Positions 38,637 to 42,120 of a stretch of DNA of 45,159 nucleotides are shown here, piece by piece (within the stretch, counting starts at the first letter, position 1; every line of letters starts with the position of its first letter). The DNA comes from Desulfobacterales bacterium GWB2_56_26. GTDB lineage: Bacteria > Desulfobacterota > Desulfobulbia > Desulfobulbales > Desulfocapsaceae. Made by a program: the position numbers and the translations under genes. Location: positions 1 to 45,159 of the forward strand of contig MGTI01000023.1 in assembly GCA_001799365.1 (NCBI GenBank). The letters are read 5' to 3'. Below the pieces are notes generated by a model. The model searched no databases and had not been told where the DNA came from. It saw nothing but the letters and a program-made list of their open reading frames with translations.

Positions 38637-39392
38637 TTGAAGGCCCGTCTCGACCAACTGCTCATCGACCGTAATCTGGCTCGGTCACTGGCTGAAGCCC
38701 AGGCGATGATCGGTGCGGGTGAGGTATATGTCGACGATCGGACGGCAGATAAACCGGGTCGATTATATCCTCCGACTGCTGTCCTCCGTCTGAAAGAAAA
38801 GTGCCCCTTTGTGTCCCGAGGAGGGCTGAAGCTGGCCAGGGGCCTCTCTCACTTCCATATCTATGTCGAGGACAAGGTTTGTATCGATATCGGGGCTTCC
38901 ACCGGCGGCTTCACCGATTGCCTTCTTCAGCATAATGCCAGAGTAGTCTATGCCGTTGATGTTGCCTACGGGCAGCTCGCCTGGAAAATCAGGCAAGATC
39001 CGCGAGTGGTGGTGTTGGAGAGATTCAACGCAAAGAACATTTCCGCAAAGGATATCCGTAACAGCCGCCTGGATCTTGCGGTTATGGATGTTTCTTTTAT
39101 ATCCATAACGACCTTGCTGCCGCCGCTAGTCAACCTCTTTACTTCTACTGTGGCGATACTCGCCTTGATCAAACCACAATTCGAACTTCCGAAGAACCTG
39201 GTCGGCGAGGGAGGCGTAGTAACCGATCCCGCCCTCCACCTGCAATCCATCGACAAGATAATACAGTTTTCGGAGCAGATGGGATTGCAATGTCATGGTG
39301 TGATCGACTCGCCTCTTCTCGGTCCCAAAGGCAATCGCGAATTTTTGATATCTCTTTCGTCTCACAACTCTTCCTTTGTGGCTATGCCATGA
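38637..39392 (+). CDS. tlyA: TlyA-family 2'-O-methyltransferase
   Basis: The protein joins an N-terminal S4 RNA-binding domain (about 1-60, RLDQLLIDRNLARSLAEAQAMI) to an FtsJ-type methyltransferase (about 65-250). SAM binding DIGASTGGFTDCLLQ, catalytic Asp in AVMDVSFIS and Lys in LALIKPQFE are visible. TlyA proteins methylate 16S and 23S rRNA ribose and affect capreomycin sensitivity. The start is TTG at 38637; ATG and GTG codons just upstream are blocked or out of frame. It lies 19 bases after cpoB and 42 bases before the selenoprotein gene, so may be co-transcribed. Confidence 0.92.
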   Translation: MKARLDQLLIDRNLARSLAEAQAMIGAGEVYVDDRTADKPGRLYPPTAVLRLKEKCPFVSRGGLKLARGLSHFHIYVEDKVCIDIGASTGGFTDCLLQHNARVVYAVDVAYGQLAWKIRQDPRVVVLERFNAKNISAKDIRNSRLDLAVMDVSFISITTLLPPLVNLFTSTVAILALIKPQFELPKNLVGEGGVVTDPALHLQSIDKIIQFSEQMGLQCHGVIDSPLLGPKGNREFLISLSSHNSSFVAMP

Positions 39393-39434
39393 GAGGAGAT
39401 GGAATACCATCTTAGGGATAAGGGAATTCTCATC

Positions 39435-41033
39435 ATGAAAAGTGCTCACCTGATTATGGCAATAGCCCTGCTGGTCAGTCTTCCCGCTCATTTGCCCGCA
39501 GCTGCCGAGGCAGACCCATATTCATCCTATACTCTTCTTTATTCCAGCAATGTGGCCGGCGAAATCGAACCCTGTGGCTGAAAACAAAATCAGCTGGGCA
39601 GTCTGTCCGGAAAAGCAAAACTGGTGAAGGATCAGAAGTCGGATTCGCAAACTCCCCTGCTTCTGATGGATGCCGGCAATCTTCTCTTCAAAAAAGGGGA
39701 TTCGGGCAACAATCCTGTGGCAATGATCACTGCTCACGGCATTGTTCGAACCTACGGCACATTATCCTATGATGCGGTTGCGGTAAGTCCACAGGACATG
39801 AATGCCGGAAGGGCTTTTTTCCGGACCTCCCAAGCTAACGGTTTTCCCTGGATATCCGCCAATATTTTTGACGAGGATGAACGGCTGGTATTTTCTCCCA
39901 CAGTTGTCATCAAAAGAACGGGAGCACCGGATGTCGGCATCATCGGTTTGACCGGTAAAAGTGAAAACAATTCTTTTTGGGCTCGGATCGGTGACTGGCG
40001 GGAAACGCTGCCGGAGCATCTCGCCCAACTGGAGTCGACCTGCGGACTACTGATCTTGCTTTCCAATCTTTCAGATGATGAAAATAGTGAAATCGCGAAG
40101 ATGTATCCGCAGATAGATGTGATCGTCGCCTCCTCTCCCACCAGATACGGCAATCAGGCTCCTCAGGTGGTTGGCGACAGCCTGATCACCCAAAGCGATG
40201 GAAGAGGAACATACCTGGGAAAACTTGAACTTAAATGGCACCCGCAAGGTTCCTGGCTGGCGACTTCTCCAACGGAGTCCCACGAACGCTTACAGGAAAA
40301 GGTTGCGGCAATTGAATTGCAGATTAAAAAATACCAGGAAGGGAAAAGCGAAGCAGATCAGGAATACGATAAAAAACTGACGGAAATGCTCAACTCCAAG
40401 AAATCGGTGGAAGATCGAATAACTTCGCTTGAAAGCGTCATTGCCGAACAGAAAGAACCTGTCTTCACAAACACCTTTAATTCCACATTTCTTCCCGTGA
40501 AACCCCGACCCTCGGGAGATGAAGTGGACACTATAGTTCAAGACATCAAAAAGAGCATCAGTGCCTATCAAAAGACCCGGCTCAAGGAAAAGGGCCAAAT
40601 CGATCAGCAGGCAGGCGAGGCGCTGCAGCTCTCTCAATTCGCAGGGGTGGCTGCCTGCACAAGCTGTCACGAAAAACAATCCGCCTTTTGGACTGAGACA
40701 GCGCATGCCAGAGCTTTTGCAACCCTGGTAAACACCGGTCAAAACTATAACCCGGAATGTCTGCCATGCCATGTCACCGGCGGGAGCATCTCCCCGGTCT
40801 CATCCTTTGCCAAAAAAGATTTGCTTCTAGTATTGCCCGAGGATAGACAAGCAGTGGGATGCGAGGCATGTCATGGCCCCGGCAGGCAACATTCCCTCAA
40901 CCCCGGAAATGTCCTACCCACCCGCAAGCCCGCCGAGCAGAAATGTATCAACTGTCATACCCCGGAGCATGACGACGATTTCGACTTTTCAACAAAGATG
41001 AATAAAACAGCGTGCCCACCGACTCATAATTGA
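39435..41033 (+). CDS. Selenoprotein: 5'-nucleotidase-like domain fused to tetraheme cytochrome c (TGA read as Sec)
   Basis: The ATG at 39435 (AAGGGA nine bases upstream) opens a Sec-type signal peptide ending near PAAAEA. After LLYSSNVAGEIEPCG the frame meets TGA at 39579-39581 (residue 49) and continues as KQNQLGSLSGKAK without another stop to 41033. Related proteins have Cys here (EPCGCxxNQLGGL), so Sec replaces the second Cys of a CGC motif. A SECIS-like hairpin follows at 39594-39610. Residues 50-260 resemble the metallophosphatase/5'-nucleotidase fold (LMDAGNLLF, ITAHGI). A coiled linker leads to four c-heme sites, CxxCH at 408, 442, 476 and 504. It should be periplasmic and redox-active. 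A pseudogene is less likely because the downstream part is fully intact. Substrate unknown. Confidence 0.82.
39579..39581 (+). other. Predicted selenocysteine codon (TGA)
   Basis: The TGA is in frame with both flanking parts. It follows Cys47-Gly48 and takes the position where homologous proteins carry Cys. The sequence between the signal peptide and the TGA and the sequence behind it are both family-like. Confidence 0.8.
39594..39610 (+). promoter_or_regulatory. Bacterial SECIS-like hairpin
   Basis: CTGGGC (39594-39599) pairs with GTCCGG (39605-39610) in six base pairs, two of them G-U, closing the five-base loop AGTCT. The loop begins 19 bases after the TGA and has G as its second base, as expected for SelB-dependent elements. 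The loop and closing stem resemble the GCAGGTCTGC apex known from E. coli fdhF. Confidence 0.75.
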
Positions 41034-41190: not shown

Positions 41191-42120
41191 TTAGCAGCCG
41201 AATGCCTTCTGCAGATTGGGAATGGTCTGCTTTTTACGGCTCATCATTCCGGGAATCCACATGGAATTGCCTTCGAGTTTGCCGTTGAATGCCTTCTCGA
41301 TCAGGGCAGGATCATCGGACAGAACCACCAGGTCGGTACCTTCTTTTACGACGTCGGTGAGCATGAGCAGCACGGAATGACGGCCTTCCGCCTTGACTGC
41401 TTCCATGGCTTTCATAAGATCGCCGCGAACATCGGCAACCTGATCGAGGGTGGCGAGTTCGAGCTGGCCGACACCGACTTTGCTGCCTTTCATATCGAAG
41501 TCTTTGTAGTCACGGAACAGCAGGTCTTTGGCGGAAACACCGGCTACGGCCGATTTGGCTTTGAGCATTTCCATGAAGAGCTCATCGGTATCGCTCACCC
41601 CGGCAACAACCTTGAGATCGGCCACAGCGGCTTTATCGGCGTCAGTGCAGGTGGGGGATTTGAAGTTGACGGTATCGCTCAGAATGGCTGCCAGCATGCC
41701 GCCGGCAATGTTCTTCGGAATGGCGATACCTGCTTCTTTGAACATTTTGTTCAATACGGTGCCAGTACAGCCAACAGGCTCTGCCCGGAACAGAATCGGG
41801 TTATTGGTGGTGACGTCGCCGATTTTGTGATGATCGACTACAGCAACGAGATTGGCGGAGGCGAGATTGGCCGGTCCCTGAGCCAAGTCACTGAAATCTA
41901 CCAGTGCGATATCTTTGCCGGCCGCATCGGTCAGCAATTCCGGGGCAGCAAGACCAAAACGCTTGAGAACGGTGGTCGATTCGGGATTGAGGTTTTTTGC
42001 ATCGATCTGCATGCAGGCTTTGGCTTCCATGCCTTGTGCGGTGAGCAGCGCAGCAAGTGCGATCGCAGAAGTAACGGAATCGGTATCTGGGTTTGCATGT
42101 CCAACAACAGAAATAGCCAT
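41191..42120 (-). CDS. ppaC: Manganese-dependent inorganic pyrophosphatase
   Basis: This 309-residue DHH-family enzyme hydrolyses pyrophosphate in the cytosol. It keeps VGHANPDTDSV, LVDFSDL, VVDHHKIGD and the C-terminal DHHA2 motif SRKKQTIP, which together hold the metal pair and phosphate. No CBS regulatory domain is inserted, so it is the short, unregulated form. A strong GGAGG precedes the ATG. In sulfate reducers pyrophosphate from sulfate activation must be removed, which would fit such a host; this is context only. It is monocistronic. Confidence 0.96.
   Translation of the reverse strand: MAISVVGHANPDTDSVTSAIALAALLTAQGMEAKACMQIDAKNLNPESTTVLKRFGLAAPELLTDAAGKDIALVDFSDLAQGPANLASANLVAVVDHHKIGDVTTNNPILFRAEPVGCTGTVLNKMFKEAGIAIPKNIAGGMLAAILSDTVNFKSPTCTDADKAAVADLKVVAGVSDTDELFMEMLKAKSAVAGVSAKDLLFRDYKDFDMKGSKVGVGQLELATLDQVADVRGDLMKAMEAVKAEGRHSVLLMLTDVVKEGTDLVVLSDDPALIEKAFNGKLEGNSMWIPGMMSRKKQTIPNLQKAFGC

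Follow-up and report, generated by a model that had tools for sequence, protein, structure and literature searches.

Does the in-frame TGA in the gene at positions 39,435 to 41,033 encode selenocysteine (Sec) and, if so, what kind of protein carries it? The window, that is the whole stretch of DNA analysed, comprises 45,159 nucleotides of a contig from Desulfobacterales bacterium GWB2_56_26. The initial annotation had seen in it a single frame leading from a signal-peptide-like start through one TGA (39579–39581) to four CxxCH motifs, and direct reading of the sequence confirmed this. The frame 39435–41033 translates into 532 residues, with one internal TGA at codon 49 and a terminal TGA, and under the standard code two open reading frames result, of 60 aa (39399–39581) and 469 aa (39624–41033, with a GTG start). 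The features considered below are as follows.

38637–39392, forward strand: TlyA-family rRNA methyltransferase gene, upstream (TIGR00478, 231 bits, cut-off 185.8)
39435–41033, forward strand: UshA-like selenoprotein gene, 532 aa with Sec49, stop codon included in the coordinates (NF041198 and translation)
39435–39509, forward strand: probable N-terminal signal peptide, about residues 1–25, read by eye
39525–40260, forward strand: degenerate UshA-type metallophosphoesterase head (profile match to 1ush and 3ivd; column counts)
39573–39581, forward strand: Cys47-Gly48-Sec49 (CxU) motif, with the TGA codon at 39579–39581 (columns alike in 71 of 71 homologues)
39594–39610, forward strand: bacterial SECIS-type hairpin CTGGGCAGTCTGTCCGG; base 20 after the UGA is a conserved G in its loop
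40656–40958, forward strand: tetraheme c-type cytochrome tail (CxxCH at 40656, 40758, 40860 and 40944; PF13435)
40704 and 40890, forward strand: conserved extra His424 and His486 of the tail
41191–42120, reverse strand: manganese-dependent inorganic pyrophosphatase gene, convergent (NF003877, 395 bits, cut-off 283)

A match to the protein was present in 130 of the 144 genomes searched, the source genome included. For alignment, the 30 best loci (among them the window) were combined with L047 and 40 further loci, six of which lack internal stops and were picked deliberately, and two weak stop-free rows spanning the site (G095:C26 and G102:C94) were left out. Among the resulting 71 rows, two of which (L047 and L057) represent one gene, 65 read TGA at codon 49 and 6 read TGC. 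The expectation that homologues would carry Cys at the position of the TGA thus held for those six only, the other 65 having TGA themselves. The proposed Cys two residues before the Sec was found throughout, the columns of Cys47 and Gly48 being invariant (71/71). Across the phylum, 158 of the 297 genomes searched gave a match and, by a hand count among the matches listed, at least about 114 rows spanning residue 49 carry an internal TGA, at whatever position, and at least 11 are stop-free. A scan of genome contigs yielded one relative, and none was found in the viral contigs searched.

The reading of the TGA as Sec is borne out by the 65 homologues that share it and by the retention of a SECIS-type hairpin. 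It could be argued that the UGA genuinely terminates translation, or results from a sequencing error, within a split gene or pseudogene, since two open reading frames exist under the standard code and no selA was found in the draft genome. However, the same codon is TGA in homologues from many genera and the hairpin is conserved, such that we consider this explanation extremely improbable; sequencing error and pseudogene were dismissed because the TGA is common to 65 of the 71 homologues. On the comparative evidence, the window gene is almost certainly a genuine selenoprotein gene.

The hairpin with a G-containing loop, described earlier as starting at the 13th base after the TGA, was confirmed at 39594–39610. 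Among the 65 Sec genes the loop starts at base 19 after the UGA in 63 and at base 20 in two, and the best hairpin energies range from -4.7 to -11.5 kcal/mol. Of the 63 distinct Sec forms, 62 or 63 show standard pairing at each step from 14:28 to 18:24, 42 at 13:29 and 8 at 12:30. When each gene was recoded synonymously 100 times, mean energies were -6.6 kcal/mol for the hairpins of the 65 Sec genes versus -2.6 for the recoded sequences, and -6.5 versus -4.9 kcal/mol for the six Cys genes. Taken singly, only 43 of the 65 Sec genes, and also three of the six Cys genes, reached a fraction of 0.1 or less against their own synonymous controls. For the window gene, two of 100 recodings gave an equally good hairpin. 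Moreover, pair 18:24, both bases of which occupy third codon positions, is a C:G pair in all but one of the 63 Sec rows and standard in only one of six Cys rows, and the homologues align across the TGA as one piece. For these three reasons the window hairpin, judged at the sequence level, is beyond chance. Its loop retains the G at position 20 but carries A instead of G at position 19, a difference from all other 62 distinct Sec rows that corresponds to a change of Gly56 to Ser. Free folding of 39576–39640 provided weaker evidence (z = -2.07), the best fold having a second stem that includes the UGA codon, and Rfam at gathering scores gave no match within the window.

The initial annotation had named selA, selB, selC and selD as the genes to look for. 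The genome carries selB (352 bits, cut-off 242.25), selD (348 bits, cut-off 125; G000:C124:4916-5845) and a tRNA-Sec with TCA in the anticodon loop, which scores 49.2 bits (gathering score 47), is truncated at the edge of contig 125 (G000:C125:3) and was not called by ARAGORN. No selA was found in the draft, which is 89% complete and consists of 263 contigs. Within the genus, selA was present in 12 of the 15 genomes searched, the source genome included; the misses were the window's draft and two genomes that are 56% and 84% complete, and all ten genus genomes with a completeness of 90% or more and a contamination of 5% or less carried the gene. The absence of selA from the draft is therefore likely to reflect an assembly gap. 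The selD match itself contains one in-frame TGA and probably encodes a selenoprotein. In several drafts of the genus selA or tRNA-Sec lies less than about 600 bases from a contig start, for selA at G014:C180:517, G007:C3:316, G006:C219:244, G009:C110:557 and G008:C49:482, as if the assemblies break beside Sec genes.

The relationship between Sec and Cys forms was followed in a tree restricted to rows of more than 430 residues (63 rows), rooted for drawing only, from which the sixth and shorter Cys row (L055) was omitted. The five Cys rows sit among Sec rows and need two label changes, both forced by well-supported branches. Both copies were checked in two genomes, G142 (Sec L068, Cys L050) and G135 (Sec L079, Cys L051), and for three further genomes with a Cys form (G105, G122 and G114) a second match is listed with a TGA, at whatever position. 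The TGC copy in G142 has a SECIS-like hairpin matching those of the Sec copies in form, apparently a fossil SECIS, which suggests a recent replacement of Sec by Cys. An origin of the Cys forms through loss of the Sec machinery was ruled out, given that selA is present in all seven genomes tested, six of which have a Cys copy. One locus of the same genus as the window (L082, G005) reads PCGGU, with one extra Gly between Cys and Sec.

To which family does the protein belong, and what has already been described? It matches the NCBIfam model NF041198, "UshA-like (seleno)protein", over residues 18–519, heme tail included, at 474.1 bits (cut-off 275), and all 27 scanned proteins of our alignment A2 match the same model at E <= 0.001. 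With its score, its PCGU motif (residues 46–49) and its heme tail, nothing separates the window protein from NF041198 (UshA_like_PCGU) as a family, and the QLGGL motif shows the single change at Gly56. It is thus very probably a member of the UshA-like (seleno)protein family with Sec at the TGA. The earlier designation as a new selenoprotein did not survive, since the family is represented both by NF041198 and in published tables; the NF041198 match, at 474 bits, rules out a new selenoprotein family, and the window contributes a new sequence of a known family whose selenoprotein status has been catalogued for years. Nor need automated annotation split the gene, as had been predicted, given that an annotation model exists.

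UshA-like proteins with a CxU motif appear in the tables of PMC2398784 (2008), whose data include 76 Sec and 92 Cys forms, of PMC9312934 (2022) and of PMC13188914 (2026), the last naming NF041198; these share family name and motif with the window protein. The available part of the 2008 paper files the family under the COG0737 nucleotidases and lists it, with SelD and FdhA, as one of the three major selenoprotein families lacking a conserved Cys-based redox motif. The available parts of these three papers describe no function for the family and mention neither hemes nor a lost metal site. A literature search, with most subscription journals outside its range, likewise found no paper on hemes or a lost metal site in the UshA-like family. 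The main texts of PMC12013277 and PMC1794560 contain no UshA entry, and PMC10454023, which concerns ushA-like genes, mentions neither selenocysteine nor cytochromes. Two other families invite comparison. UshA-like (seleno)protein family 2 (NF049981) matches the head weakly, at 38.1 bits and below its cut-off of 140, and its motif is CxxU, according to the part of PMC13188914 available, as against CxU in the window protein. The same source places other multiheme cytochromes among the selenoproteins, namely ExtKL and an octaheme protein of the tetrathionate reductase family; ExtKL (NF040886) is likewise a multiheme c-type cytochrome (seleno)protein but belongs to another NCBIfam family, which 6 of the 27 alignment A2 members match weakly.

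The head of the protein is recognised by the A2 profile, which matches UshA (1ush) and the nucleotidase 3ivd, and no Pfam family was found in it at E values up to 1. We take the ligands of the two-metal site of UshA to be D41, H43, D84, N116, H217 and H252. Mapped by sequence via the profile match, metal-ligand positions of UshA correspond to N39, A41, N82 and P119 of the window protein, and the canonical residues are kept rarely among the 71 homologues (D39 in 23, H41 in 8, D82 in 3 and N119 in none). In the regions of the last two metal motifs (residues 206–212 and 229–235) a His occurs in one of the 71 rows and not in the window protein. Just outside these regions His228, which presumably aligns with no UshA metal ligand, is found in 36 of 71, and the first metal motif, directly after which the CxU motif lies, is partly preserved in some members. 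Thus, while the head is related by profile to E. coli UshA, 3ivd and SoxB, the family differs from them in lacking conserved metal ligands and in carrying CxU and, mostly, hemes. The term 5'-nucleotidase used initially is accordingly not sustained, the mapped ligands being absent from the window protein and not conserved across the family.

Because these positions are not conserved, the head is probably dead as a nucleotidase, and a 5'-nucleotidase-type fold that has lost its metal site would most likely not act as a phosphoesterase; it may still bind metal through other residues or at another site. That the head instead still functions as a metallophosphoesterase (5'-nucleotidase), with a redox switch formed by Cys/Sec and the hemes, would accord with the clear profile similarity to 1ush and 3ivd, with the D-x-H partly kept in some members and with the placement under COG0737 in the available part of PMC2398784. 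Nevertheless, the changed ligand positions of the window protein and the lack of a conserved His column in the last two motif regions of 71 homologues render this highly improbable.

The four C-terminal heme motifs were confirmed at residues 408, 442, 476 and 504, with support from Pfam matches to Cytochrome_C554 (PF13435; 44 bits, cut-off 20.8) and Cytochrome_C7 (26.1 bits, cut-off 24.8). The A2 profile relates the tail to the multiheme chain 6i5b and to cytochrome c554 (1bvb), from which it differs in being fused to a Sec-bearing head. Four CxxCH motifs occur in 63 of the 71 homologues and none in the other eight. Among the 63, His424 and His486 are the only invariant extra histidines (63/63 each) and His512 is present in only 38, which leaves one or two hemes without a conserved distal His within the tail. 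Of the 47 rows long enough to include position 527, 45 have a Cys there (Cys527). An AlphaFold2 model of the window protein, run with one homologue, had a mean pLDDT of 39.7, and the placement of the Cys/Sec pair near the hemes, as proposed in the initial annotation, is a conjecture. In the available sequence downstream of the eight homologues without CxxCH, seven show no such motif, and L070 is followed by a decayed heme-like remnant with one CxxCH. Four tail-less homologues (L094, L095, L096 and L110) retain Cys and Sec and lie between tlyA and the pyrophosphatase gene like the window gene. The existence of the eight implies that the Sec head can do without heme coupling.

How might such a protein act? 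SelB and tRNA-Sec, together with the hairpin 13–29 bases downstream, insert Sec at UGA codon 49, as conservation indicates, and the protein would be exported by means of its signal peptide. The Cys-Gly-Sec pair, placed just past the old first metal motif, would replace metal chemistry, most likely by reversible selenenylsulfide/thiol redox chemistry on a small molecule or a protein, and the tail's four c-type hemes would supply or accept the electrons; in tail-less relatives another electron carrier would serve. The protein is best read as a thiol/selenol redox protein of the periplasm, built on a dead phosphoesterase fold, and we give its redox mechanism about an even chance; the invariant Cys-Gly-Sec/Cys speaks for it, whereas the grouping of the family, in the available part of PMC2398784, with those lacking a Cys-based redox motif speaks against it.

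A more specific version, to which we assign a rather low likelihood, has the Cys-Gly-Sec site at the old metal site of this periplasmic oxidoreductase exchanging electrons directly with the protein's own c-type hemes, where selenium might transiently ligate a heme without a conserved distal His; the substrate would be a thiol, sulfur or selenium compound of anaerobic bacteria. We think it improbable that CxU serves chiefly to bind metal or heme, in a structural role or as a heme ligand, rather than as a redox catalyst: one or two hemes do lack a conserved distal His (H424 and H486 being invariant and H512 present in 38/63), but the heme-less orthologues at the same locus keep Cys and Sec, so that a role as heme ligand is not universal.

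Added to the published picture of the family are the non-conserved nucleotidase metal site, the invariant Cys-Gly-Sec/Cys accompanied by a c554-like tail in 63 of 71 homologues, and the heme-less Sec orthologues. Taken together, the Sec found in most of the members sampled, the lack of a conserved phosphoesterase site and the heme tail suggest that "UshA-like" may be a misleading name; they also point to an uncharacterised selenium redox protein that is common in the order, probably the Desulfobulbales to judge from L047.

The surroundings of the gene were compared in 22 neighbourhoods, made up of 21 loci and the window. The pyrophosphatase gene is convergent in 20 of them, at up to 2.3 kb from the match start in 17 and at 5–7.4 kb in three, and was not found in the neighbourhoods of L097 and L098. 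Being convergent, it is not an operon partner, and we draw no functional link. The tlyA gene lies immediately upstream in 7 of the 22, and the arrangement of tlyA and pyrophosphatase genes represents a conserved gene order and not an operon.
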